Assembly: GCA_017462785.1 (NCBI GenBank)
Contig: JAFTQJ010000018.1
Coordinates: forward strand, 1 to 34,208
Source of the DNA: Oscillospiraceae bacterium
GTDB lineage: Bacteria; Bacillota; Clostridia; Oscillospirales; Ruminococcaceae
Length of the DNA stretch: 34,208 nt
Reading direction: 5' to 3'
Below are positions 6,226 to 30,678 of this stretch, in pieces (the first letter of the stretch is position 1; every line of letters starts with the position of its first letter). A model generated the notes under the pieces. The model saw only the letters and a program-made list of their open reading frames with translations. It did not search any database and was not told where the DNA came from. Made by a program: the position numbers and the translations under genes.

Positions 6226-7062
6226 ATGGCAAAAGCATGGGAAGAACTTGAAAACAAATGCTTTGAACATGTGAAAACCAGCTTCGGACACGCCGCTGTG
6301 ATCGAAGCATATGGAAAGGCGGACTCCACCAAAGCCGACATCAGAGTTGCTGCACCCTCCGGTGATTTTTTTGTGGAGGTGAAAGCGAAAAGCTCACAGT
6401 GCTGTCAGTTTGTGCTCTTTCCGGATGACGAAACCGGAAGTTTTGAGTTCTCTGACCGCAACAAAGTCCCCCTTACCCCGAGCTGTCAGAAGATCATTGA
6501 TCACATGAACCAGAATTATGACAAATATAGCAGAGTCGGCAAAAAGCCGATTCCGATCAATGTGGAAAGCTCAGTTTTCTATGGGCTTGTTGATGAATTC
6601 TACAGTGCAAAGAATGTGAAATGTTTCATGACCGAAGGCGAGGAGATCATGATTTTTCCTGCTGCGAAATTCCCCGAATATTTCGAGATCGCTGGATTTT
6701 ACCGCAGAAAAAACAGCGGCTCTTCCGAACCGAATGAAGCCAAAAACCATGCTGAGATCATACAGGGATTGGCGGATTACGGGATCGAGGGGGATGTTGT
6801 GTACCAGTCTGTCAGCGGTAAAATCAGATGCCTTTTGCATACGGATGCAAAGCTCGATGGACAGAGAATGATGTGTGATGAGTATACCTACCAGTTCAAG
6901 GACAATCCGCATTCCCAGAAAGTAACCAAACAGAAACAACATGTATTTGAAGTCAGACGGCTCTCCAATACCAGCAACCCGAATGTCATCTGCCAGCTGA
7001 CCCTCAAAAAGCACCAGCAGGACAAAGACGATCTCGCCGCATTTGAAGCTCTTCTGAAATGA
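6226..7062 (+). CDS. Type II restriction endonuclease, HhaI-like (predicted GCGC)
   Basis: 278 residues. It has a PD-(D/E)XK-type active site: D38 (KADIRV), then E51-V-K53 (FFVEVKAK). The stretch after it, SSQCCQFVLFPDD, and the later blocks CQKIIDHMNQNYDKYS, SSVFYGLVDEFYSAKNVKC and EYFEIAGFYRRKNSGS resemble R.HhaI as I remember it, which is about 258 residues. The neighbour is a close match to M.HhaI, which supports cleavage at GCGC. The start ATG follows GTGAGGAA at eight bases. The family assignment rests on memory of R.HhaI, the motif and the partner gene. If the identity is wrong, it is still very likely the restriction partner. Confidence 0.82.
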   Translation: MAKAWEELENKCFEHVKTSFGHAAVIEAYGKADSTKADIRVAAPSGDFFVEVKAKSSQCCQFVLFPDDETGSFEFSDRNKVPLTPSCQKIIDHMNQNYDKYSRVGKKPIPINVESSVFYGLVDEFYSAKNVKCFMTEGEEIMIFPAAKFPEYFEIAGFYRRKNSGSSEPNEAKNHAEIIQGLADYGIEGDVVYQSVSGKIRCLLHTDAKLDGQRMMCDEYTYQFKDNPHSQKVTKQKQHVFEVRRLSNTSNPNVICQLTLKKHQQDKDDLAAFEALLK

Positions 7063-7081
7063 CATTCCCTTTTCCGCATGC

Positions 7082-7110
7082 TTGCAATTTACCGCCTCTT
7101 GTGTTATAAT
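7082..7110 (+). promoter_or_regulatory. Separate promoter for the methyltransferase
   Basis: TTGCAA (7082-7087), a 17-base spacer and TATAAT (7105-7110) sit in the 84-base gap between the endonuclease and methyltransferase genes. A dedicated promoter lets the protective methylase be made independently of the endonuclease, as is common in type II systems. Confidence 0.75.
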
Positions 7111-7146
7111 GAAAAGGATATTGATATTGAACAGGAGGGTGAGTGC

Positions 7147-8142
7147 ATGATTCATATTGAGAAAAAGCTGCTGGAAAACAGGACGTTCATAGATCTGTTC
7201 GCCGGATTGGGCGGTTTCCGGCTTGCTCTGGAATCTCTGGGAGCAAAATGTGTTTATTCCAGTGAATGGGACGAACACGCCCAAAAAGTGTATGCACGCA
7301 ATTTCGGGGATACGCCGGATGGGGATATTACCAAGGTCGATGAAAACACCATTCCGGAGCATGATATTCTCTGTGCAGGATTTCCATGTCAGCCCTTTTC
7401 CATCAGCGGCAAGCAGAAAGGCTTTGAGGACAGCAGAGGAACCCTTTTCTTTGATGTTGCACGAATTGTCAAGGCGAAGCGTCCGCTGGTGGTTTTCATG
7501 GAGAATGTCAAAAATTTTGCGGCTCATGATAATGGACGCACCCTCGCAGTTGTCCGGAATACCATGGAGGAGCTGGGTTATACATTTTTCCAGCAGGTGC
7601 TCAATGCTGTGGATTACGGGATTCCGCAGAAGCGTGAGAGGATCTATATGGTGTGCTTCCGGAAAGATCTTGGGATCGAACAATTCCAGTTCCCCAAGCC
7701 CTTTCCGCTGGAAAAGCATGTCGAGGATCATCTGCTTACGGATGAAGCACAGGTCGAGCATCTGTGCATCGAACGGCAGGACACCTATTTCAACGGTGTG
7801 CCGGATGATCAGTACAGCACCAGATCCATCCGGCTTGGCATCGTAAACAAGGGCGGTCAGGGCGAACGTATTTACAGCACGAAGGGAATCGCCATCACAC
7901 TTTCTGCCAACGGCGGCGGTGTATTCGCCAAAACTGGCGGCTATCTGGTCAATGGAAAAACAAGACGGCTCCACCCAAGAGAATGTGCACGGATCATGGG
8001 TTATCCGGATTCCTACCAGCTCTGTGATAATCCAAGTCAGGCATATAAACAATTCGGCAATTCCGTTGTCATTGACGTACTGCAATACATCGGGATCCAG
8101 ATCGGCTCACGATTGGTACCACAAAAAGGAGAAACCCCATGA
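7147..8142 (+). CDS. DNA (cytosine-5) methyltransferase, M.HhaI-like (predicted GCGC)
   Basis: 331 residues. The motifs of C5 methylases are all present in order: I, FIDLFAGLGGFRLAL (residues 14-28, AdoMet binding); IV, GFPCQPFSI with catalytic Cys81, the same number as in M.HhaI; VI, FMENVKNF; VIII, PQKRERIYMV; IX, RRLHPRECARIMGYP; X, YKQFGNSVV. The target-recognition segment reads GGQGERIYSTKGIAITLS, with Gln238 and Arg241 one position from the M.HhaI bases-contacting Gln237 and Arg240 as I recall them. GCGC is therefore the expected target. The frame is open from 7078, but AGGAGG lies eight bases before ATG 7147. Its TGA overlaps the next ATG. Confidence 0.95.
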   Translation: MIHIEKKLLENRTFIDLFAGLGGFRLALESLGAKCVYSSEWDEHAQKVYARNFGDTPDGDITKVDENTIPEHDILCAGFPCQPFSISGKQKGFEDSRGTLFFDVARIVKAKRPLVVFMENVKNFAAHDNGRTLAVVRNTMEELGYTFFQQVLNAVDYGIPQKRERIYMVCFRKDLGIEQFQFPKPFPLEKHVEDHLLTDEAQVEHLCIERQDTYFNGVPDDQYSTRSIRLGIVNKGGQGERIYSTKGIAITLSANGGGVFAKTGGYLVNGKTRRLHPRECARIMGYPDSYQLCDNPSQAYKQFGNSVVIDVLQYIGIQIGSRLVPQKGETP

Positions 8143-10700
8143 AATCAATCACCCTCGGCATTCTTGCCCATGTCGATTCCGGAAAGACCACGCTCTCGGA
8201 GGCTCTGCTGTATGAAGCAGGTGAGCTTCGCCGTCTGGGGCGTGTGGATCATGGGGATGCCTTTCTCGATACCCACCGTCTGGAGCGTGACAGGGGCATC
8301 ACCATTTTCTCAAAGCTTGCACGGCTCCACGCAGGCGATACGGAATTTACCCTCCTCGATACTCCCGGACATGTCGATTTTTCGGCGGAAATGGAACGTA
8401 CACTGCAAGTCCTCGACTACGCCGTCCTCGTCATCAGCGGCTCGGAGGGCGTTCAGAGCCACACGGAAACACTCTGGCACCTCCTTGAACACAGCGGTGT
8501 TCCCGTCTTTCTGTTCATCAACAAAATGGACCTCTCCCTTCGCAGCCATGAGGAGCTGATGCAGCAGCTCAATGCCCGACTGCACGGGAGCTGCGTGGAT
8601 TTCACGGACATGCAGTCCGAGGCGTTCGCCGAAAGCCTCGCCGTCTGTGATGAAGCCCTCATGCAGGAGCTGCTCGAAGAAGCAGAATTGCAGCCGGAAA
8701 CCATCGCTCAGGCAGTCGCTTCACGCCATGTGTTCCCCTGCCTGTTCGGTTCTGCCCTGAAAAACGACGGCGTAAAGGAGTTTCTCAGTCTGCTTGATGC
8801 CTTCACACGCCCCCGTCCGGCACTGGAGGAGTTCGCCGCAAAGGTCTACAAGATCACCGAGGACGAACAGGGACGCAGACTCACCCATATGAAGATCACC
8901 GGCGGCACGCTCCGTGTGCGTGACGTTCTCGAAGGAACCGACGCACAGGGCGAGCCGTGGCAGGAAAAGGTGAACCAGATCCGCCTGTATTCCGGTGCGA
9001 AATTCCAGCCGGCGGAGGATGCCCCTGCCGGAACCGTCTGTGCCGTGACCGGTCTGACCCATACCTACGCCGGACAGGGACTCGGTGCAGCCAGTGACAC
9101 CGGCAGTCCGCAGCTTGAACCCGTTCTGCGGTATTCCGTTGTGCTGCCGCAGGAGATCGACGTGCACACGGCACTCTCCGCCCTCCGCCGGCTGGAGGAG
9201 GAGGATCCGCAGATGAAAGTTGCCTACCAGCCGCAATTGCAGGAGATCCATGTCCTGCTCATGGGCGAGATCCAGATGGCAGTCCTGCGGCATGTGCTCG
9301 CTGAACGCTTCGGCATCCATGCGGAATTTGCCGCCGGCGGCGTTGCCTACAAGGAAACCATTGCCGATAAAGTGGAGGGCATGGGGCATTATGAACCCCT
9401 CCGGCACTACGCTGAGGTGCGGCTCATCCTCGAACCGCTTCCGCAGGGCAGCGGCATGAAATTCACCAGCATCTGCCGTGAGGATGCCCTTGACCGCAAC
9501 TGGCAGCGGCTCATTCTGACGCATTTGCAGGAAAAATCCCACCTCGGTGTGCTGACCGGTTCACCGCTGACGGATGTGAAGATCTCCCTCGCCGCCGGAC
9601 GTGCCCACAAGAAGCACACGGAGGGCGGCGACTTCCGGCAGGCGACCTACCGTGCCGTCCGTCAGGGACTGATGCAGGCGGAAAGCATCCTGCTCGAACC
9701 TTGGTACCACTTCCGGCTGGAGGTGCCGCCGGAGTGTGTGGGCAGGGCGATCACGGACATGCAGCTCATGAACGCCAGCTTCGACCCGCCCGAAACAATG
9801 GGCGAAATGACGCTCCTGCGTGGAAAAGCACCGGCAGCCGCCATGATGACCTATCAGGGGACCGTCATGGAGTACACAAGGGGCAGGGGACGGCTCTCCT
9901 GCACCTCGGCAGGCTACGCCCCCTGTGCGAATGCGGAGGAGGTGCTCGAACGGATCGCCTATCAGCCGGAAGCGGACACGGACAATTCACCGGACTCCGT
10001 ATTCTGTGCCCATGGTGCGGGCTTTCTGGTGAAATGGGACGAGGTGCACAATTATATGCACACCGAAAGCTGTCTGCATCCGGAAACAGAGGAGCTGACC
10101 GCACCGCAGAGAACCCCCGAACGCACGAAATACACCGGCAGTGCGGCACAGGACGAGGAGCTGATGAAGATCTTCGAGCAGACCTACGGAGCGATCAAGA
10201 GGGAAGAACGCCATGCCATGCACACGCAGAAGCAGCCCCCCAAGCCCTCACGCAAGCCCGTACCCATCCCCAAGGGACCGCAGTATCTGCTTGTGGACGG
10301 CTACAACATCATTTTTGCGTGGGACGAGCTGAAAACGATTGCGAGGGACAGTCTGGAATCCGCAAGACAGCGGCTCATTGACATTCTGAGCAATTATCAG
10401 GGCTTCCACCAGTGCCGGCTGATCGTGGTATTCGATGCCTACAAGGTCAAGGGCGGCAGGGAGAGCGTTTCGGAGGAGCACGGGGTCAGCATCGTGTACA
10501 CCAAGGAAGCGGAAACAGCGGATATGTACATCGAGCGAGTGACGCACAAGCTCTGCAAGGATGCGAGGGTGAGAGTGGCGACCTCGGACGGTCTTGAACA
10601 GATCATCATCCTCGGCAACGGTGCATGCCGTGTGTCCGCTGAGGAATTCCGCCGTGAGGTCGCACAGACGGAAGAGGACATCAGGGCGATGATACGATAA
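8139..10700 (+). CDS. TetM-like ribosomal GTPase fused to a YacP/Rae1-type NYN nuclease domain
   Basis: 853 residues. Residues 1 to about 660 follow the EF-G/TetM plan: G1 AHVDSGKTT (10-18), G3 DTPGH (about 74-78), G4 NKMD (128-131), then domains II to V with blocks such as GGVAYKETI and LEPWYHFRLEVP. After a Lys/Pro-rich linker (about 690-713), residues 715-853 form a YacP-type NYN domain: YLLVDGYNIIFAWDEL, VVFDAYKVKGG, YTKEAETADMYIE, VATSDGLEQ. Its acidic residues are those of PIN-like nucleases. The B. subtilis homologue Rae1 (YacP) cuts mRNA on the ribosome. The domain IV tip reads RAHKKHTEGGDFR where TetM, as I recall, has a YYSPVS-type loop, so a tetracycline role is doubtful. AGGAG lies seven bases before the ATG, which overlaps the methylase TGA as ATGA. 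Similar fusions exist in Firmicutes databases under Tet names; I know of no described function. Confidence 0.93.
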   Translation: MKSITLGILAHVDSGKTTLSEALLYEAGELRRLGRVDHGDAFLDTHRLERDRGITIFSKLARLHAGDTEFTLLDTPGHVDFSAEMERTLQVLDYAVLVISGSEGVQSHTETLWHLLEHSGVPVFLFINKMDLSLRSHEELMQQLNARLHGSCVDFTDMQSEAFAESLAVCDEALMQELLEEAELQPETIAQAVASRHVFPCLFGSALKNDGVKEFLSLLDAFTRPRPALEEFAAKVYKITEDEQGRRLTHMKITGGTLRVRDVLEGTDAQGEPWQEKVNQIRLYSGAKFQPAEDAPAGTVCAVTGLTHTYAGQGLGAASDTGSPQLEPVLRYSVVLPQEIDVHTALSALRRLEEEDPQMKVAYQPQLQEIHVLLMGEIQMAVLRHVLAERFGIHAEFAAGGVAYKETIADKVEGMGHYEPLRHYAEVRLILEPLPQGSGMKFTSICREDALDRNWQRLILTHLQEKSHLGVLTGSPLTDVKISLAAGRAHKKHTEGGDFRQATYRAVRQGLMQAESILLEPWYHFRLEVPPECVGRAITDMQLMNASFDPPETMGEMTLLRGKAPAAAMMTYQGTVMEYTRGRGRLSCTSAGYAPCANAEEVLERIAYQPEADTDNSPDSVFCAHGAGFLVKWDEVHNYMHTESCLHPETEELTAPQRTPERTKYTGSAAQDEELMKIFEQTYGAIKREERHAMHTQKQPPKPSRKPVPIPKGPQYLLVDGYNIIFAWDELKTIARDSLESARQRLIDILSNYQGFHQCRLIVVFDAYKVKGGRESVSEEHGVSIVYTKEAETADMYIERVTHKLCKDARVRVATSDGLEQIIILGNGACRVSAEEFRREVAQTEEDIRAMIR

Positions 10701-10737
10701 AAAAGGGGTTCATCGGAATCATCCGGTGAACCCTTTT
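10701..10737. terminator. Bidirectional intrinsic terminator
   Basis: GGGTTCATCGGA and TCCGGTGAACCC form a 12-bp stem (one G-U) with an ATCA loop, with AAAA before and TTTT after, so it can stop both the plus-strand restriction operon and the minus-strand dockerin gene. Confidence 0.92.
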
Positions 10738-10739
10738 CC

Positions 10740-11588
10740 TTATTTCTTTCCCATGATGAGATCCATCAGCAGCTGCAAGTCCGCTTCGTTCACCGCATCG
10801 GCGGTGCTGGGCGGTGCGGCGTTCTGGTATTCCTTGTAGTGATAGGAATGGGAGCTGCCGTCAAGGTTGGCGGAGGTCAGATGGATCCTGCCGCTTTCCG
10901 GAGCCTGCAAATACCGTTTGAGCATTGCGGCGTCGAATGCATCCACAGAACCGTCCCCGTTCACATCCCCTTTGGTGCAGGGGTCGAGGGGGATGAAATG
11001 CAGTCCCCAGCTGCGTGCATATGCTTCTGCTCCCGTGCCCTGATAGCCATAAATGGTCTGGGAATCGTCCACAGCTCCGGCAATCAGGCTGTCATTCACC
11101 GTGCAGATGCCGAACGCCCCCAGCCCGATGGTTTCCACACTCGCAGGAATCGTCAGCTCTTTCAGAGCGTCACAGCCATAGAATGCATCCGTCTGAATGT
11201 TCTCCAGACCATCCGGCAGTGTGATCTCCGAAAGCGATGTGCAGCCATAGAACGAGCGATTGCCGATGGATCTGACCGATGCTGCAATTTCAGCCGATTC
11301 CGCCCCCCAGCAGCATTCAAATGCACTGTTCCCGATGGCGGTGATCCCGTCCTCCACGACAATACGGCTCACATCTCCGCACACAGCACTCCATGGGGCA
11401 TCCGACCAATACCGGCAGTCATCTATTTTTCCGGTGCCTGTGATGGTGAGGGTACCATCCTCTCCCAAAGTCCATGTACAGTCCGTGCCGCAGCTGCCGG
11501 ATAAGACCGTTTCCGCAGAAACCGGACCGGAGAGAAGCGTGCATCCCAGAATGGATGCCGCAGTGAGAAAAGCAATCTGTTTTCGCAT
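10740..11588 (-). CDS. Secreted BspA-type leucine-rich-repeat protein with dockerin
   Basis: 282 residues. A signal peptide (MRKQIAFLTAASILGCTLLSGPVSA) is followed by a short beta-rich opening and BspA/LRR_5-type repeats with the pattern IGNSAFECC, IGNRSFYGCTSLSEITLPDGLENI, DAFYGCDALKELTIPASVETI. The C-terminal dockerin has a normal first repeat, GDVNGDGSVDAFDAAMLKRYL. The second begins ANLDG and resumes VNEADLQLLMDLIMG only after about 20 inserted residues (SSHSYHYKEYQ...). It is predicted to be a non-catalytic or binding component displayed on the cellulosome. GGAGGG lies nine bases before the start. Confidence 0.88.
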   Translation of the reverse strand: MRKQIAFLTAASILGCTLLSGPVSAETVLSGSCGTDCTWTLGEDGTLTITGTGKIDDCRYWSDAPWSAVCGDVSRIVVEDGITAIGNSAFECCWGAESAEIAASVRSIGNRSFYGCTSLSEITLPDGLENIQTDAFYGCDALKELTIPASVETIGLGAFGICTVNDSLIAGAVDDSQTIYGYQGTGAEAYARSWGLHFIPLDPCTKGDVNGDGSVDAFDAAMLKRYLQAPESGRIHLTSANLDGSSHSYHYKEYQNAAPPSTADAVNEADLQLLMDLIMGKK

Positions 11589-13347: not shown

Positions 13348-13902
13348 ATGAAGGACGCAGACATTATATCCCTGTATTTCGCACGTTCCGAAGAGGCGAT
13401 CAGCATCACCCGTGAGCAGTACGGCAGACTGATCCGCCGTATCATTTCCGGTATCCTGAAAAATCAGGAGGACACGGAGGAATGCGAGAATGACACCTAT
13501 ATGAATGCTTGGAACGCCATCCCTCCCAACCGCCCCAAGAGCATGAAAGCCTACCTTGCGGTGATTGCACGGAATCTGGCATTCAAACGCTATGAGTACC
13601 TCCATGCAGAAAAGCGGAATCCTGAAGCCGCCGTTTCCTTTGACGAGCTGGCGGAATGCCTGTGCAGTGAGCAGGCATCCAATTCCTATGCAGGCGAGGA
13701 GCTGCGTGAAGCCATCAATGCATTCCTCGGAACACTCAGCACAGAACACCGCCGGATCTTCCTCCTGCGGTACTGGCAGGCGTGCAGTATCGAGGAAATC
13801 ATGCAGATCAGCGGTTTCAGCAAAAGCAAGACCGAATCCATCCTGTTCCGGACACGGAACAAGCTGCGGAAATTTTTAGAGGAAAGAGGGTATATGGCAT
13901 GA
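13348..13902 (+). CDS. ECF-type RNA polymerase sigma factor
   Basis: 184 residues. Region 2 is at about residues 20-90 (YGRLIRRIISGILKNQEDTEECENDTYMNAWNAIPP, then KAYLAVIARNLAFKRYE). Region 4 is at about 125-180 (FLGTLSTEHRRIFLLRYWQACSIEEIMQISGFSKSKTESILFRTRNKLRKFL), with a clear helix-turn-helix. There is no sigma region 3, as expected for ECF factors. I choose ATG 13348, eight bases after AGGAGG; the ATG at 13342 is only two bases from it. The stop overlaps the next start as ATGA, coupling it to the membrane protein downstream, the usual arrangement of a sigma factor and its anti-sigma factor. Confidence 0.92.
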   Translation: MKDADIISLYFARSEEAISITREQYGRLIRRIISGILKNQEDTEECENDTYMNAWNAIPPNRPKSMKAYLAVIARNLAFKRYEYLHAEKRNPEAAVSFDELAECLCSEQASNSYAGEELREAINAFLGTLSTEHRRIFLLRYWQACSIEEIMQISGFSKSKTESILFRTRNKLRKFLEERGYMA

Positions 13903-16100
13903 AACGTGAAGAATTGAAAAACATGCTCTCTCAGGTGGATGAGCAGTACATTGCAGAGATTCTCGATGCTGAGGATATGACCTCCGAAGCCGCCCCCGTC
14001 CCTGCACGCCCGAAACGCTTTGCCGTCTGGACAGCCGCCGCCGCAGTGCTGTGCATCTGTACGGTCGGGGGAGGATGCCTGTGGTGGACGCAGGTGCACC
14101 GGCAGGAGCTTCCGCAGCAATCTGCGGAAAGCGGCGGAGAAGCAACTGCGATGCAGGCGGATACCATCAGGGAAGAACGGAACGGATATGTCCTCCGGTG
14201 GGAACTGGAGGGGAGAAACAGTACTCCGGATTATCAAAGAAATTTTAACGGTCCGATCGAACAATTTGGCATATGTGAATTGCCGGTCACTGTGGAGAAT
14301 ACCGAACTGTCCCTGTCCCTCTACCATGATGAAAACGGCGATCCTGTGGAAGCATCGGCTGTGCTCCGGAATCAGGAACAGCAGATGGTGTTCAACCTCA
14401 GCTCCAAGGGAAAGCTCTACCCTCTCTATTGTGAGGGCGATCTGACGGAGGATGCGGCATGTGACCAGCCCGTGATCCACATTTACGACAATACGACACA
14501 GCGGGATGAAACTGAGTATGAATACGAGCTGTACTATCTGCACGAGGGTACGGCAATGACCATGCGAACCTATGGCTTTTCCGCTGAGGAGGCAGAAGCA
14601 CTGGCAGCCGCATTCCTGCAAGACGGCACAACGCCTGCAAAGCTCTCAGAAACCGCAACCAACCGGAACGAGGAGGACAGAACCGAGTATATACTGGTGT
14701 GGGACGAGGGGGAGCAGCTCTATCTGAATATTGACCCCGAGTACCTCACCTATCCGGCATCCTATGAAAGATATACCACCAAGCTGATTCCTGTCGGCGG
14801 TGATGATTTCACGGATATTTATGGCAGTGTGGGTTTTGATGAGAACGGCATTCCCTATGAGGTTCTTGCAGAATACAAAAAGGACGGAAAGCGGCTGACG
14901 ATTAAGGTCAACGACCGTGAGCATCCCATGAAGAGTCCCTCCGGCAGCCTTTACTGCAAGGAGCTTGCGGAGGAACACGGCAAGCCCACCATTGTGGCAA
15001 TGAAAACCGGCACCAACAGCTACCAGCTCTGCTTTACACAGGACAACACAAGCGTCCTACTCAGTGCGGATGGCTATACCGCAGAAGAGGCGGAGGCGAT
15101 CACTGTAGAGTTGATGCAGCAGCACAGAACCGCAGCACAGATCTATGACGACGAAAAAATGATTGATTACAGCCAATATTTCACACTCGAACAGCCCGTC
15201 CCTGTTTCCGCAGATTTCACATTGGAAACGAACGGCGGTGTCCATGAGCTGGATGAAACCTCTCCGTTTTTCGATCTTTCTCCCTTCGGTCCGACTGACT
15301 TTGCAGGACGTTTCTATCTGCGTGAAAACGGGTCCACCGCCAATATCCGGCTGGAGTACCGCAGCGATGACGGACGCTCCGTGACTGTGACCGCCGGCGG
15401 AACAGGAAAAATGTATGCACATGGACAGCTTGCAGAGGACGGCGGCACGGAACGCAATTCGGGCAGAATTTACGGCAGCCGCACGGAGGACGGCGGCACT
15501 GCACTGAGCTTCCGTGTCTGTGACTGGGACTGTGAGATCATCGGTGACGGCATGACGGAGGAGGAAATGATCCTGTTCTATGACAGGCTGTCTGCGTACC
15601 TGTGGGAGAACTTCGGTGATACGGTGTTCCTGCATGCGGAGGACTGCTTCTCCCGTGATGTATCCGAGATCACCACCCAACGCATCGACCTTGTGTGGAA
15701 TGGTCTGCACCAATATCCCATCACAGACCCCGGCATCTTCACAGGGCTGGGACTCCAGTCCGCAGAGGTGCACTGCACCGGTGACGGCACTCCGCAGCAT
15801 GCCCTGCTGTATTACAGCACGGGGCAAACGTCCATTGATATTTTCATGAGCAGCTATGGCGAAATGGGACCAGTTTTCCCGATCTCCGGTGCATCGGACG
15901 GGTTCAGACGCAATGGCATCATGATGTACGGCTTTTCCGATGCACAGAACCCCGATCACAGGGAGCTGTGCTTCGTCACTGCAAACAACATCGGCGTGCA
16001 TCTGATCTGCTATGGTGTGGATGCCGAAGAGATCCTTGCACTGGCAGATCGGCTGATCGAATCCGGAAACAGTCCGGCACAGCTGCTGGATGGCAATTAA
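13899..16100 (+). CDS. Membrane anti-sigma-like protein with four repeated extracytoplasmic units
   Basis: 733 residues. A cytoplasmic N-terminus of about 40 residues (MKREELKNMLSQVDEQYIAEILDAED) is followed by one membrane segment (FAVWTAAAAVLCICTVGGGCLWW, about 42-64) and some 670 outside residues. The outside part contains four diverged units, each closing with the same pattern: YGFSAEEAEALAAAFLQDG, DGYTAEEAEAITVELMQQH, DGMTEEEMILFYDRLSAYL and YGVDAEEILALADRLIESG. GAGG lies nine bases before the ATG, which overlaps the sigma stop. The context and topology suggest a membrane-bound partner that holds the ECF factor until an external signal arrives. No known sensor domain is recognised. Confidence 0.78.
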   Translation: MKREELKNMLSQVDEQYIAEILDAEDMTSEAAPVPARPKRFAVWTAAAAVLCICTVGGGCLWWTQVHRQELPQQSAESGGEATAMQADTIREERNGYVLRWELEGRNSTPDYQRNFNGPIEQFGICELPVTVENTELSLSLYHDENGDPVEASAVLRNQEQQMVFNLSSKGKLYPLYCEGDLTEDAACDQPVIHIYDNTTQRDETEYEYELYYLHEGTAMTMRTYGFSAEEAEALAAAFLQDGTTPAKLSETATNRNEEDRTEYILVWDEGEQLYLNIDPEYLTYPASYERYTTKLIPVGGDDFTDIYGSVGFDENGIPYEVLAEYKKDGKRLTIKVNDREHPMKSPSGSLYCKELAEEHGKPTIVAMKTGTNSYQLCFTQDNTSVLLSADGYTAEEAEAITVELMQQHRTAAQIYDDEKMIDYSQYFTLEQPVPVSADFTLETNGGVHELDETSPFFDLSPFGPTDFAGRFYLRENGSTANIRLEYRSDDGRSVTVTAGGTGKMYAHGQLAEDGGTERNSGRIYGSRTEDGGTALSFRVCDWDCEIIGDGMTEEEMILFYDRLSAYLWENFGDTVFLHAEDCFSRDVSEITTQRIDLVWNGLHQYPITDPGIFTGLGLQSAEVHCTGDGTPQHALLYYSTGQTSIDIFMSSYGEMGPVFPISGASDGFRRNGIMMYGFSDAQNPDHRELCFVTANNIGVHLICYGVDAEEILALADRLIESGNSPAQLLDGN

Positions 16101-16339: not shown

Positions 16340-16368
16340 TTGACAAAAATCCCCCCATATGATACGAT
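16340..16368 (+). promoter_or_regulatory. Promoter of the DUF4832-dockerin gene
   Basis: TTGACA (16340-16345), a 17-base spacer and TACGAT (16363-16368). The leader to the ATG at 16401 is short, about 25 bases. Confidence 0.7.
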
Positions 16369-16400
16369 TGAAATACCAATGCATTAAAGGAGGAATCACC

Positions 16401-18848
16401 ATGAACAAAATCAGAACAGGCTGCCTCTGTCTTGCCGCTGTCCTTGGCACCGTCTTTGCAGGACAGCTCCCCGTCCGGAGCCATGCGGCACAGGAGCTGA
16501 AGGATTCCGGCATCAACTACACGGAATCCACCGAAACAATCGAAAACCCCGGTGCCGGCTATACCAACACGCTCTGGATGAGCTGTGCACCGGAGGATAC
16601 CCCCATCTATAACCCCACCGGAAACCTCATGCTCATTCTTGTTGATCTCGGCGGCTTCTCCAGCGGCTCGAACGGCACCACCGACGAGGACGGCAATTAC
16701 ACCGAGGGCACGGATTATGATCTGGACGAAACTTTTTTCCGGAATCTCCGTGTGACCCTCGAAAACTGCCGCAGGAACGGCTGTACCATCGCCCTGCGGT
16801 TCCGCTATGATGATGTCGGCAGACTGAACCCCGAACCTGCCACATTCGACCGGATGGTAAAGCATATCGAGCAGATCCGTGCGGACGGCTTCCTTGAGGA
16901 TTATCAGGACATCATTGCATTTGTAGAATCGGGCTTTGTCGGCTCATGGGGCGAACACTGGGGCGGCAAATACTGCTCCTTCGAGGACAAGGCTCGGGTG
17001 CTTGATCTTCTGCTGGATGTTGTGCCGGCTCCCATCCCCGTCACCGTCCGGACTCCCCCGACCTTTACCACATGGGCAGGCATTACCGAGGACGATCTTA
17101 CCGGCTACACCCCCGAACCCGGCAGCGATGCAGCGAGAGTCTGCCTGTACAATGACGGCTACATGGGTTCGGATATCGACCTTGGCACCTACCACGACCG
17201 TGAACGGGATACGGCATGGGTCGGCAGACAGGCTCTGACTTCCTATTTCGGCGGTGAATTCTCCGGCAATCTCGAATTTGCCATGCAGTATGACACCTAC
17301 CTCCCCGAAAATGCCATCCCCGAAATGTACAAGACCCACCTGAGCTATATCAATTCCAATATCTACCAGCTCTACAAGGACTATACTTTCGGGGAGCAAT
17401 ACGATGTGGAGCATGCGGATCACAGTGCCTACTACGGGCAGACCGTGTACAAATTCATGCGGGATCACCTCGGCTACCGCTTTGTCCTGCGTGACAGTGA
17501 CCTCAGTGCGGAGGCAGAGCAGGGCGGCGTGCTGACCGTGCAGGCGGACATTGAGAATACCGGCTTTGCCAACCCCATCATGGAGCAGAAAGCCGAGATC
17601 CTGCTGGAAAAGGACGGCAATTACATCCGCACAGAGGTCGATGCGGATACCAATACATGGTACTCCTGCACGACCGTTTCACCGGAATTCCAGCTCAAGC
17701 TTCCCGGCGGTCTGGAAACGGGTGAGTGGAATGTCTACCTCAAGCTCTCTACGGGTGACAATACGCTCGATGAAATGCACATGCGTTCCGTGCAGTTCGC
17801 CAACAACGGTACATGGCATGCAGGACTCGGGGCGAACCTGCTCGGTTCGTTCACAGTGACGGAAAGTGACAATGCCGCACAGCGTTCCGATGCCGGTTTT
17901 TATCAGGTGAATGCGGAGCGTCCGGTCACAGCCTCGGACGGTGAGATGTTCACCGTCAACCAGACGGCGGCAGCGGACGGATATATCAGCAATGCCACAG
18001 AGCGGGACAAATCCCTGCAATACGCCGAAAACGGCGAAAACAGCCTCTATATCACGAATGATGACAAATACCTCTATGTCATGGCGGAGATCGTGCACAA
18101 TGCCAAGTCCCCCGTCTATAATATCAGCTTCAAAAATCAGGCAAACGGCAAAAACTACTGGCTCTACTATCAGGGCAACGGCTTTATCTATTTCAATCAG
18201 GGCACACCCTACGGCGTAGTGCAGAAGCATTACGGCAATACGGTGGAATTCCGTCTGCCGCTGGGTGAACTGATGGGACTGGAGGCAGGTGTGCTCCTGC
18301 ATGATGTGAATGTGACCATTCAGGACGAATCCGATTCGTGGACAAAGGTGGCGATCCTGAATGCGGAGGAATACACCATCGCCGACCGTTTCAATATCTA
18401 TTCGGCAAAACGCACCGTTTACCTCCCCGAAACCGAAAGCATGACTCTCACCGCAAGAACCACCTGCGAGGGACTTTCCTGCCAGTGGATGCTGGACGGT
18501 GTGCCGGTCGAAAATGCCAATGCCCCCACGCTCACCATCTCCGGTGCACAGAAAGGGCTGTACTCCGTGGAGATTACGTCCGCAGGCGGCACGGTGCAGA
18601 CTGCGGAGATCTGCGAGGTGCTCGCCGGTGCGAAACAGCTTCGGGGTGATGTGGATCTCGACGGCAGTGTCAGCACGGCGGATGTGATCCTCCTCCAGAA
18701 GTACCTGCTCGGTCTTGCTCCGCTGCAAGCCGCACAGACAGCCGCCGCCGAGCTGCACGAGGACGGCAGAACGGATGCCTTTGACCTGAGTCTGCTCAAA
18801 CGCCTCCTTCTTTCCCCAGAATCTTCAAAAATTGCGAAAAACTCTTGA
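16401..18848 (+). CDS. Secreted DUF4874/DUF4832 protein with C-terminal dockerin
   Basis: 815 residues. A signal peptide (MNKIRTGCLCLAAVLGTVFAGQLPVRSHAA) precedes a region matching the DUF4874-DUF4832 pair, from ENPGAGYTNTLWMSC through ALRFRYDDVG, FVESGFVGSWGEHWGG and TVRTPPTF; a TIM-barrel-like part followed by a beta-sandwich is expected. Residues about 500-660 look like a CBM9-type or similar beta-sandwich (TNDDKYLYVMAEI, FRLPLGEL), then an Ig-like segment. The dockerin repeats are GDVDLDGSVSTADVILLQKYLLG and LHEDGRTDAFDLSLLKRLLL. It is a probable glycan-active cellulosomal enzyme of unknown substrate. AGGAGG lies seven bases before ATG 16401; an ATG at 16359 in frame is inside the promoter and is rejected. 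The TGA overlaps the next promoter. Confidence 0.85.
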   Translation: MNKIRTGCLCLAAVLGTVFAGQLPVRSHAAQELKDSGINYTESTETIENPGAGYTNTLWMSCAPEDTPIYNPTGNLMLILVDLGGFSSGSNGTTDEDGNYTEGTDYDLDETFFRNLRVTLENCRRNGCTIALRFRYDDVGRLNPEPATFDRMVKHIEQIRADGFLEDYQDIIAFVESGFVGSWGEHWGGKYCSFEDKARVLDLLLDVVPAPIPVTVRTPPTFTTWAGITEDDLTGYTPEPGSDAARVCLYNDGYMGSDIDLGTYHDRERDTAWVGRQALTSYFGGEFSGNLEFAMQYDTYLPENAIPEMYKTHLSYINSNIYQLYKDYTFGEQYDVEHADHSAYYGQTVYKFMRDHLGYRFVLRDSDLSAEAEQGGVLTVQADIENTGFANPIMEQKAEILLEKDGNYIRTEVDADTNTWYSCTTVSPEFQLKLPGGLETGEWNVYLKLSTGDNTLDEMHMRSVQFANNGTWHAGLGANLLGSFTVTESDNAAQRSDAGFYQVNAERPVTASDGEMFTVNQTAAADGYISNATERDKSLQYAENGENSLYITNDDKYLYVMAEIVHNAKSPVYNISFKNQANGKNYWLYYQGNGFIYFNQGTPYGVVQKHYGNTVEFRLPLGELMGLEAGVLLHDVNVTIQDESDSWTKVAILNAEEYTIADRFNIYSAKRTVYLPETESMTLTARTTCEGLSCQWMLDGVPVENANAPTLTISGAQKGLYSVEITSAGGTVQTAEICEVLAGAKQLRGDVDLDGSVSTADVILLQKYLLGLAPLQAAQTAAAELHEDGRTDAFDLSLLKRLLLSPESSKIAKNS

Positions 18849-18944: not shown

Positions 18945-18971
18945 GTGCATCATTCAAAGGAGGGTCAACTT

Positions 18972-20783
18972 ATGGCAAAGAAAAACTTAAGCCGTATCCT
19001 TGCCGGTGCAATGGCAGCAGTCTGCGTCACAACTGCTGTTCCGCTGTGCTCCGTCGATGCTGTGGAGATCACAGAGGGTGCGGTCATCTACGCAACGGAT
19101 TTTGAGGATGGTATTGTGGACAAGTTCACAGGCAGAGGCGGTGTGGAGGTCATGACAGCTGTGACCGATTACGCCAACAGCGGTGAATACTCCATGTGCG
19201 TCAGCGAACGTGCCAAGGGCTGGCATGGTCCGCAGCTCCTGCTTGACGAGATCTGCGAGCCGAACAAGGAGTATACCGTCAGTGCCTTTGTCCGTGCGGA
19301 ATGGTACAATGACATCAAGCTCAGTCTGGAGTACACCGACGCAGAAGGGGAGCGTCATTACTCCAATCTCAAATCCGCAGTCAATCAGGGCGACGGCTGG
19401 AGCGAATTTTCCGAGGTGAAATTCAGCTTCACCGATGATGTATCCAAGGTCTATCTCTACTTCGAGGGCAATGATGCCGCTAAGATCTGGATCGATGACT
19501 TCACCCTGAAGGAAGCACCGATCATCCCGATTCAGGATGATATTCCGTCCCTGCAGGCAGTGTACAACGATCATTTCAAGGTGGGCACTGCGATCATGGC
19601 ATCGAACCTCGCTTCCCCGTCCTTCATGGATCTGACCGAAAAGCATTTCTCCGACAGCATCACCTTCGGCAATGAGCTGAAGCCCGATGCACTTCTCAAG
19701 CAGGATGCATGTCAGGCGTATATGGAGGAGAATGACGGCGATGACACCAATCCCCAGATCTCTCTGTCCTCCGCAAGAAGCCTGCTCAACTACTGTGCAG
19801 AAACCGGCACTCCCGTCAGAGGTCATACCCTCGTATGGCACAGCCAGACACCGGACTGGTTCTTCAAGGAGGGCTATGCGGATGACGGCGAATGGGTAAC
19901 ACCCGAGAAGATGCTGCTGCGTATGGAGAACTACATCAAGAACGTCATGGAAGCTCTCGAAACAGAGTATCCGGATGTGGAATTCTACGCATGGGACGTT
20001 GTGAACGAAGCATGGCTCGACAGCGGTGTGCCCCGTACTGCCGGTGAGCAGGGAGCAAACGGCTCCAACAATTCCGCATGGGTGCAGGTATTCGGTGATA
20101 ATTCCTTCATCAAGTATGCATTCCAGTATGCAAGAAAGTACGCCCCCGAGGGCTGCAAGCTCTATTACAACGACTTCAACGAGTACATGCCGCAGAAAAC
20201 CGATGCCATCATTGCAATGGCGGAGGAGCTGAAAGCCGAGGGTCTGATCGACGGTATCGGCTTGCAGTCCCATCTGGATGTCGGCTTCCCGTCCGTTTCC
20301 GTCTATGAAAAGGCAATCGCCAAGTTTGCCGCAACCGGTCTGGACATTCAGGTAACGGAGCTGGACATTACCACCGCCGACACCTCCGAGGCAGGCATGG
20401 AAACACAGGCTCAGATCTACAGCGATATTTTCGATGTGCTGGTGAAATATTCCGATTCCATCTCCGCTGTTGTGCTCTGGGGCGTAACCGATGACCAGAG
20501 CTGGAGAGCTGCCAAGCTCCCCCTGCTGTTCGACGCAGAATTTCAGGCAAAGCCGGCATTCTATTCCGTTGTGGATGGTCTGGAAGAGCCGGTCTATGCA
20601 ATGGGCGACACCAATATGGACAGCAAGATCTCTGTCAATGACATCATTGCACTGCAAAAGCATCTGCTGCTCACCAAGAAGCTCAGTGCTTCCGCATGCA
20701 AGCTTGCCGACCTGAACGAGGACGGCGTTGTCAATGCGTTCGACCTTGCATTCCTGAAAAAGCAGATCCTTACAAAATCCTGA
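18972..20783 (+). CDS. Endo-1,4-beta-xylanase: CBM22-like, GH10, dockerin
   Basis: 603 residues, secreted. The signal peptide ends near VDA. Residues about 38-185 form a beta-sandwich like CBM22/CBM4_9 (ATDFEDGIVDKFTGRGGVEV ... KIWIDDFTLKEAP). The GH10 domain runs from about 195 to 530 with the hallmark blocks RGHTLVWHSQTPDWFF, the acid/base Glu346 in WDVVNEAW and the nucleophile Glu463 in QVTELDIT. The dockerin follows: GDTNMDSKISVNDIIALQKHLL and ADLNEDGVVNAFDLAFLKKQIL. It hydrolyses xylan while held on a scaffoldin. AGGAGG lies eight bases before ATG 18972; a GTG in frame at 18945 is inside the leader hairpin region and is rejected. Confidence 0.96.
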   Translation: MAKKNLSRILAGAMAAVCVTTAVPLCSVDAVEITEGAVIYATDFEDGIVDKFTGRGGVEVMTAVTDYANSGEYSMCVSERAKGWHGPQLLLDEICEPNKEYTVSAFVRAEWYNDIKLSLEYTDAEGERHYSNLKSAVNQGDGWSEFSEVKFSFTDDVSKVYLYFEGNDAAKIWIDDFTLKEAPIIPIQDDIPSLQAVYNDHFKVGTAIMASNLASPSFMDLTEKHFSDSITFGNELKPDALLKQDACQAYMEENDGDDTNPQISLSSARSLLNYCAETGTPVRGHTLVWHSQTPDWFFKEGYADDGEWVTPEKMLLRMENYIKNVMEALETEYPDVEFYAWDVVNEAWLDSGVPRTAGEQGANGSNNSAWVQVFGDNSFIKYAFQYARKYAPEGCKLYYNDFNEYMPQKTDAIIAMAEELKAEGLIDGIGLQSHLDVGFPSVSVYEKAIAKFAATGLDIQVTELDITTADTSEAGMETQAQIYSDIFDVLVKYSDSISAVVLWGVTDDQSWRAAKLPLLFDAEFQAKPAFYSVVDGLEEPVYAMGDTNMDSKISVNDIIALQKHLLLTKKLSASACKLADLNEDGVVNAFDLAFLKKQILTKS

Positions 20784-28161: not shown

Positions 28162-30678
28162 TTACTTGTTGGCAATGTAGTCCTCAATGGAATCCGTGCC
28201 GCCGGTGCCGGTGTAGGCTGCGTACTGGAGGATGAGTGCTGCATCGGATGCGTCGAATTTGCCGTCGCCGTTGACATCGGAGCTTGCCTCCTGTGCGGCA
28301 TTCAGTCCGCTTTCGCCGCTGACACCTGCTGCTGCGGCTGCCTGCAGGAGCGTTGCCGCATCGCTTGCGTCAATGCCGCCGCTGCCGTCCACGTCACCTG
28401 TTGTGACGGGGGCACTTGTGCTGTCATTGCCGATGCAGTTGATGACTGCATTCAGCAGCTCTCTGTTCTCATCACGGATCAGGATCTCGTTCCACATTTC
28501 CTCCGTACCTGCATAAATGACCGTTTCAAGGGAAGTACAGCCGTAGAATGCACCCCAGCCGATGGAGCTTGTGGAAGCCGGCAGATACACTTCGGTCAGT
28601 GCGGAGCAGTTAGAGAAAGCATAATCATTCACATTGCTCACGCCTTCGGGAATGCTCACGGATGTCAGGCTGCTGCATCTGTTGAATGCACCGTGCATGA
28701 GGTTCACCAGAGTGGAGGGAAGTGTGACGGATTCGAGATTGATGCAGCCCTCGAACGCTGCATCGGAGATCATTGTCAAGCCCTCGGGGAGGATGACCTC
28801 TGTGATGCCTTCAAAGTTTTCAAATACACCGCCGCCGATGCTCTTGACATTGTCCGGAATGGTCACAGTACCGCTGACTGTGTACGGGCAGTAAACGAGT
28901 GTATTGTCCTTGTGGGTGATGATCATATTGTCCTCGGTGTAGAAATAGGTGTTCCCCTCTGCAATGGTGATCTCCTCCATGCTGGTGCAGTCGGTGAATA
29001 CACCGGAACGGATGGACTGGAGGCTCGCAGGAATGTGTACTGCGGTCAGTGCGGTGCAGTGTTCAAAAGCATGGTCCATGATGGTGATCATTGTCTCGGG
29101 GAGGGTGATCTCTGTGATGCCCTTGCAGTCACTGAATGCATACTGGTCAATGACGACAGTGCCGTCCGGAACGGTGTACGCACCCTGTCTGCCGCTGGGG
29201 TAGGTCACCAGCGTTCTGCCGTCCTTTTCAAAGACAACGCCGTCAATGCTCTTGTATCCTATGTTCTGTTCGTCCACGTTGATGGCGGTCAGGTTCTTGC
29301 CGGAAAAGGCTCTCGCATTCAGGTGGGTGACGGATCTCGGCAGATCCACCGTTGTCAGGCTGTCGCAGTCCTTGAATGCAAATTCATTGATGACCTTGAC
29401 ATTGTCCGGAATGATAATGGATTCCAGTGCAGTACAGCCGCCGAAAGCATCGTGGGAAATGTATTGCAGTGTTTCCGGCAGTTCGATGGAACGCAGACTG
29501 CTGCAACCGCTGAAGGCACCATTGCCGATCGTTTTCAGGTGTTCCGGAAGCGTCACATTGGTCAGGTTCTTACAGCTTGAGAAAAGACTGTTGTTAATGA
29601 CAGTGATGCCGCTGCCGAGCTTGACATCCGTCAGTGCCTGACAATGCGTGAAGGCATATTCGTGCAGTGACTCGACAGAATCGGGGATCTCAATGGAGGT
29701 CAGGGCGGAGCAGCTATAAAACGCAGCCCTCTCAATGCTTTCGAGGGTATCCGGCAGGGTCACGGTTTTGAGTGTCTCACAGCCTGCAAATGCAGTAGTA
29801 GCAATGGACTTGACCGGCAGCCCTTCGATCGCAGCAGGAATGTCGGCGGATGTGATGCCCTCGTCCGCACCGGTGATCTGGATATAGCCGCCGAAGCTCT
29901 GGTAATGCAGACCGTTGTAAACGCCCTCGGAGATGATGGTGCAATGTACGTCCGCTGTCAGAAGGATGGTGTTGTTGCTGTCGATTGCGATGGTATCCCA
30001 GCCGGATTCACTGCCGCCATAGTAAACATCATGGACAGCGGAGCCGTTGAATGCACCGAAGCCGATGGAGGTCATGGTGCTGGGGATGGTGACGGAGGTC
30101 AGATCACTGCAATTCACGAATGCCTCCGGCTGGATCGCAGTCACACCCTCCTCAATTACCACGCTTTGCAGATCAATGCAGCCTGCAAAACACATGTAGG
30201 GGATGCTTTCAACTGCACCGGGGATCACCAGTGTGGTCAGACCGGAGCAGTTCATAAACGCACCATTGCCGAGCGTGATGTGAAGCCCCTGAATGTCGAT
30301 CACGGACAGACCGCTGCATCCGTAGAATGCATATTCACCGATGCTCTGGATGCCGGCATGGATGGTCACGGAGTTGATCCACATGCATTCATAGAATGCC
30401 CGATCCTCGATCGCAGTCACTGCCACGCCGTCGATCTCAGCCGGAATTACAATATCGGGTGTGGCAACCTCCAATACCCCGGAAACACCTGCGATGGTGA
30501 CGAAGTTTCCATAATTCCGATAGATCAGACCGTTATAAACGCCCTCGGTGTAGGTGGTGTCCTCTGCGGATGCAGTGAGCATGGACACCGTGCGGACGGA
30601 GGAGATGGGAGCTGTATTTGCTCCGAACATCATAACTGCTGCTGCGGCAAACGCCAGAATACGTCTGTAGTTTTTCAT
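28162..30678 (-). CDS. Large secreted BspA-type leucine-rich-repeat protein with dockerin
   Basis: 838 residues. A long signal peptide (MKNYRRILAFAAAAVMMFGANTAPISS..., cleavage probably near ASA at about 38) is followed by some two dozen LRR_5 repeats of about 23 residues with the pattern I-x-x-x-A-F-x-x-C-x-x-L-x-x-I/V-x-I/L-P. Variants such as YNGLIYRNYGNFVTIAG and YNGLHYQSFGGYIQITG mark the starts of two superunits. The C-terminal dockerin is GDVDGSGGIDASDAATLLQAAA and SDVNGDGKFDASDAALILQYAA, of a different flavour from the DAFDxxxLKK dockerins elsewhere in the window. It is probably a binding or scaffolding surface protein. GGAAGGAA lies five bases before the start. The promoter is not seen; the 5' side carries repeat copy C. 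Confidence 0.9.
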   Translation of the reverse strand: MKNYRRILAFAAAAVMMFGANTAPISSVRTVSMLTASAEDTTYTEGVYNGLIYRNYGNFVTIAGVSGVLEVATPDIVIPAEIDGVAVTAIEDRAFYECMWINSVTIHAGIQSIGEYAFYGCSGLSVIDIQGLHITLGNGAFMNCSGLTTLVIPGAVESIPYMCFAGCIDLQSVVIEEGVTAIQPEAFVNCSDLTSVTIPSTMTSIGFGAFNGSAVHDVYYGGSESGWDTIAIDSNNTILLTADVHCTIISEGVYNGLHYQSFGGYIQITGADEGITSADIPAAIEGLPVKSIATTAFAGCETLKTVTLPDTLESIERAAFYSCSALTSIEIPDSVESLHEYAFTHCQALTDVKLGSGITVINNSLFSSCKNLTNVTLPEHLKTIGNGAFSGCSSLRSIELPETLQYISHDAFGGCTALESIIIPDNVKVINEFAFKDCDSLTTVDLPRSVTHLNARAFSGKNLTAINVDEQNIGYKSIDGVVFEKDGRTLVTYPSGRQGAYTVPDGTVVIDQYAFSDCKGITEITLPETMITIMDHAFEHCTALTAVHIPASLQSIRSGVFTDCTSMEEITIAEGNTYFYTEDNMIITHKDNTLVYCPYTVSGTVTIPDNVKSIGGGVFENFEGITEVILPEGLTMISDAAFEGCINLESVTLPSTLVNLMHGAFNRCSSLTSVSIPEGVSNVNDYAFSNCSALTEVYLPASTSSIGWGAFYGCTSLETVIYAGTEEMWNEILIRDENRELLNAVINCIGNDSTSAPVTTGDVDGSGGIDASDAATLLQAAAAAGVSGESGLNAAQEASSDVNGDGKFDASDAALILQYAAYTGTGGTDSIEDYIANK

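Follow-up and report, generated by a model that had tools for sequence, protein, structure and literature searches.

A stretch of 34,208 nucleotides (nt) from an Oscillospiraceae bacterium (contig JAFTQJ010000018.1, assembly GCA_017462785.1), analyzed over its whole length and called the window below, carries a gene in which a translational GTPase (trGTPase) is joined to a YacP/Rae1-type NYN domain. The gene lies at 8139-10700 on the plus strand. An earlier note on this DNA had proposed that one uninterrupted frame joins the two parts, and this was confirmed: from the ATG start, 853 amino acids (aa) are encoded in a single unbroken frame, in which Pfam recognizes the five GTPase domains and NYN_YacP. 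Every motif named in that note is present in the translation. The features of the gene are the following.

8124-8131 (+), ribosome-binding site AAAAGGAG, 7 nt 5' of the ATG (sequence)
8139-10700 (+), 853-aa fusion of trGTPase, extension, linker and NYN domain (open reading frame [ORF], translation, Pfam)
8145-8804 (+), G domain, residues 3-222 (Pfam PF00009 GTP_EFTU, E 3.5e-50)
G-domain motifs (+), AHVDSGKTT at residues 10-18, RGIT at 52-55, DTPGH at 74-78 and NKMD at 128-131 (motif counts)
8832-9329 (+), domains II and III, residues 232-397 (Pfam PF22042, PF14492)
9339-9680 (+), domain IV, residues 401-514 (Pfam PF03764 EFG_IV)
9597-9638 (+), domain-IV tip GRAHKKHTEGGDFR, residues 487-500 (alignment; the four tetracycline-protection rows differ, with GLYYSPVSTPADFR)
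9690-9932 (+), domain V, residues 518-598 (Pfam PF00679 EFG_C)
9996-10037 (+), clade-specific extension motif SVFCxHGxGFxVxW, residues 620-633, also present in unfused members
10062-10277 (+), variable linker, residues ~642-713, with a semi-conserved EL..IFEQTYG stretch (alignment A1)
10287-10688 (+), YacP/Rae1-type NYN domain, residues 717-850, with acidic residues D720, D766, D795, E799 and D817
10702-10737 (+), terminator-like hairpin of 16 pairs, 3' of the stop codon (hairpin scan)

The NYN_YacP match (residues 717-850, E 8.2e-49) reached 166.2 bits against a curated cut-off of 24.6. In the GTPase half all five Pfam domains, EFG_III (residues 327-397) included, were at or over their cut-offs, with EF-G_D2 (residues 232-312) at 27 bits for a cut-off of 27. 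The hairpin match alone is weak, as the scan of the region gave 6 such hairpins with 6.9 expected.

A family of fused proteins

A profile-guided scan of GTDB, from which the best 80 loci were retained, gave a full fused ORF with 50-60% identity to the window protein at 79 loci, which shows that the fusion is not an assembly accident; at the remaining locus (L193) the frame is broken in two. The sources include Intestinimonas, Ruminococcus flavefaciens, Flavonifractor, Herbinix, Anaerovorax and Fusibacter, together with many uncultured Clostridia. By homology, the window protein is therefore a member of a large fusion family. Among 113 fused proteins, DTPGH was found in 111, TAD..IE in 110 and DGYN in 109, and in the 80 rows of alignment A2 conservation of the P-loop and DTPGH residues is 90% or higher.

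The NYN half and Rae1

The comparison of the NYN half with PDB sequences returned only B. subtilis YacP (5mq8, 5mq9; E 4e-28), and D720, D766, D795, E799 and D817 do not vary among the 80 rows of alignment A2. The assignment to the YacP/Rae1 type made in the earlier note therefore stands. By count, D720 and D795 align with D7 and D81 of Rae1, which we take to be catalytic residues of that enzyme.

The fusion shares with Rae1 the NYN domain and its acidic residues. However, Rae1 is a free protein of ~170 aa, mostly encoded at an rlmB-yacP-sigH locus and ending in a LEKxRR-type tail, whereas the fused domain is attached to a GTPase, is encoded elsewhere in the genome and is without the tail. The LEKxRR-like C-terminal motif, a feature of the free members that is not known to define the family, was found in 22 of 28 free NYN proteins versus 2 of 111 fused ones, and it is absent from the window protein. 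In the sequences compared, the C-terminal tail of free Rae1 is thus missing from most fused NYN domains, which is new as far as we have searched. Arg166 of B. subtilis Rae1 presumably falls within this tail. A missense change of Arg166 was recovered among loss-of-function suppressors (excerpts of PMC6613710). The tail may therefore be of importance to Rae1, and in the fusion its role may have passed to the GTPase.

In one genome (G347), a free NYN gene (L056/L106) located outside the rlmB-sigH locus nests among the fused NYN domains, and an unfused protein of the GTPase clade (L231) is encoded in the same genome. A secondary release of the NYN domain was considered there; as the approximately unbiased (AU) test did not reject its grouping with the other free NYN proteins (p 0.44), nothing was concluded from it.

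Fused and free forms across genomes

The two forms were compared in genomes of the order, class and phylum of the source organism. In the order, 51 of 147 genomes have an NYN_YacP match. Fifty of these matches lie in frames of at least 833 aa and none in a free-standing frame; the remaining one, at a contig end, is in a frame of 465 aa that also includes the C-terminus of the GTPase. In the class, where 192 of 293 genomes have a match, the 150 matches listed fall into two size classes, with 86 of at least 600 aa, 59 of at most 220 aa and 5 in between. A single one of these 192 genomes (G417) holds both fused and free copies. Under independence, both forms would be expected together in about 17 genomes (86 x 59 / 293, from the matches listed), a figure that relatedness softens. 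Apart from G417, two matches were recorded only in G263, G314 and G346, where the second is a 21-bit fragment below the cut-off. Among the matches listed, four families include some genomes with the fused form and others with the free form, and in a fifth (f68) the two forms come together in G417. In the phylum, 163 of 299 genomes have a match, and at least 18 of the matches are fused; two matches in one genome occur only in G623, where both are free.

The source genome (2.58 Mb in 103 contigs) contains the fusion as its sole NYN_YacP match, with the caveat that the assembly is 88% complete. The near absence of coexistence between the fusion and free Rae1 in these relatives suggests that the fusion took over the job of Rae1, and this distribution favors a Rae1-like role.

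The rlmB-sigH locus in fused genomes

Of 16 free-NYN loci, 15 have sigH as a neighbor, 14 an rlmB-type gene and 12 an mrnC-type gene. Representatives of rlmB and sigH scored over their NCBIfam cut-offs; the mrnC-type representative has an RNase III domain match only (Pfam), and its name was given by eye. RlmB was sought in 26 genomes, 22 of them with the fusion, and 25 matched. In seven fused genomes (G259, G330, G346, G263, G314, G423 and G169) sigH lies beside rlmB, and no NYN match at E 1e-4 was found between the two genes in the fetched stretch. The other 15 fused genomes, that of the window included, gave no sigH match within 1.5 kb beside rlmB and are uninformative on this point. In the source genome, rlmB is on contig C100 and the fusion on C63, and neither rlmB nor sigH was found adjoining the fusion within the window.

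Measured as the distance between match ends, the rlmB-sigH interval is 546-735 nt in the 12 free-NYN loci directly flanked by both genes and 55-283 nt in six of the seven fused genomes. The interval in G330 is 659 nt, with stops in all frames and an NYN match not above chance. From these maps, rlmB and sigH have stayed neighbors in seven fused genomes with no yacP separating them, which is also new as far as searched. The interval of G259 holds a 59-aa open stretch that resembles the C-terminal part of a free NYN protein and scores 11.5 bits on the free-NYN profile, the best of 500 shuffled peptides reaching 1.8. This stretch is likely a dead yacP that remained after the arrival of the fusion. 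In the five other intervals tested no remnant was found beyond what shuffled sequences give.

G330 is also the genome with the only one of 115 fused loci (L088) located within 4 kb of sigH, with the fused gene at 7280-9928 (-) and sigH at 13412-14056 (-). This proximity to the usual site of yacP may be due to chance or may be a trace of origin.

The GTPase half

Compared with PDB sequences, the GTPase half matches TetO best, followed by EF-G (among the best 60 of 230 matches), and the five-domain layout is common to TetM, TetO, TetW, EF-G and the fusion. This bears out one side of the description "TetM-like" given in the earlier note. In other respects the description is loose: the window protein obtained 392.3 bits on the tetracycline-protection model NF012153 (NCBIfam), below the cut-off of 775, and its GTPase belongs to a different clade, with a different domain-IV tip, the SVFC extension and the NYN domain setting it further apart from TetM, TetO and TetW. 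It is not an EF-G either, given 269.6 bits on TIGR00484 against a cut-off of 659.4; the true EF-G of the source genome is another protein (L003, 1197.7 bits).

Unfused proteins of ~650 aa with the same GTPase and the SVFCxHGxGF extension were found in other Clostridia. In a tree of 104 rows, for which GTDB rows were thinned to every third, fused and unfused GTPases form one clade with a Shimodaira-Hasegawa-like approximate likelihood ratio test (SH-aLRT) support of 100 from quick searches. EF-G, the four tetracycline-protection proteins and a second group of unfused Tet-like proteins all fall outside this clade. Within it, 61 of 62 fused rows group in a single clade (SH-aLRT 98), the lone row outside (L237) being half of a broken gene on a long branch. 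In a further thinned tree all 33 fused rows are in one clade (SH-aLRT 99). By these trees the fused genes group as one clade, and the GTPase half is a clade separate from the tetracycline-protection proteins with another domain-IV tip; both points are new to the extent of our searches.

The tip KHTxGGDF is present in 109 of 113 fused proteins, in 21 of 21 unfused ones and in 0 of 24 other trGTPases, while SPVST.ADF is found in 0 of 113, 0 of 21 and 7 of 24, respectively. In the alignment the tip is as long as that of the tetracycline-protection rows, and its His490 aligns with the His of the EF-G tip. Lys492 aligns with Pro509 of TetM, numbered by count along the alignment. Pro509 has been reported in contact with C1054 (excerpts of PMC8161019). 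The triple change S508A P509A V510A in loop III of TetM is tolerated (excerpts of PMC4750697), and for this reason a different tip sequence does not exclude tetracycline activity.

The second unfused Tet-like clade (L200-L207, L209 and L216) scores 484-576 bits on the tetracycline-protection model, also below the cut-off of 775, and has the tip GxHHxxHTHPxDFF in the six rows viewed.

Among 20 genomes with unfused members of the GTPase clade, free NYN is also present in 12, and the other 8 have no NYN match. A trans link between the unfused GTPase and free Rae1 was rejected, 12 of 20 genomes being too weak.

Tetracycline-protection genes, plasmids and phages

A protein over the tetracycline-protection cut-off is encoded in 12 of the 147 genomes of the order. 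The fusion is present in 10 of these 12 genomes versus 41 of the other 135 (Fisher p 0.0005, uncorrected for relatedness). This co-occurrence argues against resistance as the main role, because a second protection protein would hardly be needed, although both genes may simply be common in larger genomes rich in mobile genes. With clade, tip and score, the co-occurrence with true tet genes weakens tetracycline resistance as the main role.

NYN matches were found in 24 of 72,556 plasmid records and 12 of 50,697 phage records. In two of the 15 plasmid rows shown, from Monoglobus and Agathobacter, the annotation at the NYN match is of the GTPase type, the two labels being TetM/TetW/TetO/TetS and "translation factor GTPase family protein", so that the fusion can probably sit on large plasmids. 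Regarding the statement of the earlier note that such proteins are usually labelled as tetracycline resistance, a resistance label does occur, in 1 of these 15 rows, which is too few for "usually". Twelve further rows (H4-H15) are C. difficile plasmid records of ~97-150 kb, in which the NYN_YacP-like matches are labelled "NYN domain-containing protein". Ten phage records shown (H16-H25) have unannotated NYN_YacP-like matches.

Among 49 IMG/VR loci, three (L279, L280 and L305) match residues up to 643-646 at 43-48% identity, and none matches through the NYN domain. In L279 and L280 the first 2.2 kb of the contig encode GTPase residues 1-643 at 48% identity; this is perhaps host DNA at the edge of a provirus.

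Surroundings of the gene in the window

The fusion gene is preceded by a type II restriction enzyme gene at 6226-7062 (+), matched by PADLOC as REase_II (E 1.4e-36), and by a C5 cytosine methylase gene at 7078-8142 (+), whose last 4 nt are also the first 4 nt of the fusion gene. A tblastn search at 1e-5 matched neither gene of the pair at any of the other 114 fused loci. Cohesin/CttA-like and dockerin proteins are encoded at 77-1705, 10740-11588, 16359-18848, 18945-20783 and 28162-30678, one of them a GH10 enzyme, and by these genes the source genome appears to be cellulosome-bearing and Ruminococcus-like. Neither tRNAs nor Rfam matches over the gathering score were found in the window.

Proposed role and alternatives

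Translational GTPases of the TetM/EF-G class enter the ribosomal A site with domain IV, and Rae1 is among the few endonucleases for which cleavage of mRNA in the A site of bacterial ribosomes has been described. We lean slightly toward the interpretation that the fusion acts as a ribosome-directed mRNA endonuclease that replaces free-standing Rae1/YacP in many Clostridia. Rae1 itself has been described as acting on A-site mRNA (excerpts of PMC6613710 and PMC12320835). The architecture of the fusion, its conserved active-site residues, the single clade, the replacement pattern and the loss of the tail are documented at the level of sequence.

For the steps beyond these, we infer ribosome binding, mRNA cleavage, its timing by and dependence on GTP, and the substrate. 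On a stalled ribosome whose A site is vacant, the GTPase in its GTP form would dock at the factor site, and domain IV would probe the A site with its own tip. GTP hydrolysis and the accompanying domain movement would then give the NYN domain access through the ~70-residue linker, and the tethered nuclease would cut the mRNA within the A site or beside it, allowing rescue and mRNA decay to go on. The GTPase module would thereby substitute for the ribosome-docking parts of Rae1, perhaps including its C-terminal tail. More tentatively, and at present a possibility that we would not favor, the single chain could perform a GTP-timed quality control, in which the EF-G-like module senses the vacant A site, licenses the cut by the NYN domain and clears the ribosome.

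Several observations weigh against replacement of Rae1 by a ribosome-directed nuclease. Domain IV and the NYN domain cannot occupy the A site simultaneously. No NYN match exists in 96 of the 147 genomes of the order, and the function is therefore dispensable. Among the matches listed, most families hold one form only, and the exclusion between fused and free forms may partly reflect shared ancestry. The tail motif was picked after the alignment had been viewed. The remnant in G259 was chosen after several intervals had been scanned, its two segments are weak singly (4.3 and 5.7 bits), and the tblastn score of the interval was equalled by 1 of 200 shuffled intervals. Two large plasmids carry the fusion or a near relative judged by label, which fits mobile resistance equally. 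The fused gene also lacks a conserved neighbor: the commonest family occurs at 15 of 115 loci when five genes are taken from longest-ORF-first gene calling, a crude procedure that in the window picked an antisense ORF over the methylase, and at 10 of 115 when all ORFs of at least 100 aa within 4 kb are counted, 88 of the 115 loci having at least 6 of the 8 kb. An operon partner was accordingly rejected.

The suggestion of Atkinson (2015), by which the protein would shield the ribosome from tetracycline or a different A-site drug and RNase activity would be an extra step, is unlikely in our view. It would agree with TetO as the nearest PDB relative of the GTPase half, with the placement of the fusion in the Tet subfamily (excerpts of PMC4342817), with the shared tip length and the tolerance of TetM loop III to changes, and with the patchy presence of the gene and its two plasmid records by label. 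However, the score falls far under the protection cut-off, the clade is separate, no fused protein has the SPVST.ADF tip, the fusion is more frequent in genomes that have a true protection protein, and few plasmid records (24 of 72,556) have an NYN match. A variant of the Rae1-replacement interpretation, in which the NYN domain cuts first and the EF-G-like module then translocates or splits the ribosome, also appears doubtful. It draws on the alignment of His490 with the His of the EF-G tip and on the genomes where a free-standing GTPase of the clade and a free NYN occur together, but these 12 of 20 genomes are not clearly over the free-NYN background.

There is little probability that the protein is a GTPase-guided enzyme for the maturation of stable RNA (rRNA or tRNA), a function originally proposed for NYN_YacP (cited in PMC4342817) and in keeping with free NYN genes that adjoin rlmB and a small gene for an RNase III domain. 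Rae1 was later described as a cutter of A-site mRNA (excerpts of PMC6613710 and PMC12320835), and the fused gene lies outside the rlmB locus, except in G330, where it is a few kb away. Least of all do we expect an effector of anti-phage defense, a role raised in the earlier note of which we saw no sign. The window gene does follow the restriction-modification pair with a 4-nt overlap, but the fusion protein has no PADLOC match at E 0.1, and the pair is not found at the other fused loci.

Relation to previous work and significance

The architecture of the fusion is already in print, and what is new is the role inferred for this variant of known parts. Atkinson (2015) described, from ten species of clostridia, a fusion of Tet with a YacP-like NYN domain and suggested that its RNase activity serves in resistance (excerpts of PMC4342817). 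That protein has the same order of GTPase and NYN_YacP in one chain and very probably belongs to the same family; whereas resistance was proposed for it, the distribution found here points to replacement of Rae1. In the literature searched, which did not extend to key papers on Rae1, neither a functional study of the fusion nor a report of its mutual exclusion with Rae1 was found, and the account of Rae1 distribution by Condon (2018) may already mention fusions.

Many Clostridia seem to have exchanged Rae1 for a version attached to a GTPase. In eukaryotes, a comparable task is performed by Dom34-Hbs1 plus a nuclease; if the GTP-timed quality control considered above were true, the fusion would represent a trGTPase of bacteria that carries its own nuclease and does the work of these components in one chain. 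As the GTPase could be frozen by analogues, it would offer a handle on when and where cleavage happens. A family whose members in gut bacteria sometimes bear a tetracycline-resistance annotation may be an mRNA quality-control enzyme, in which case counts of resistance genes would be inflated.

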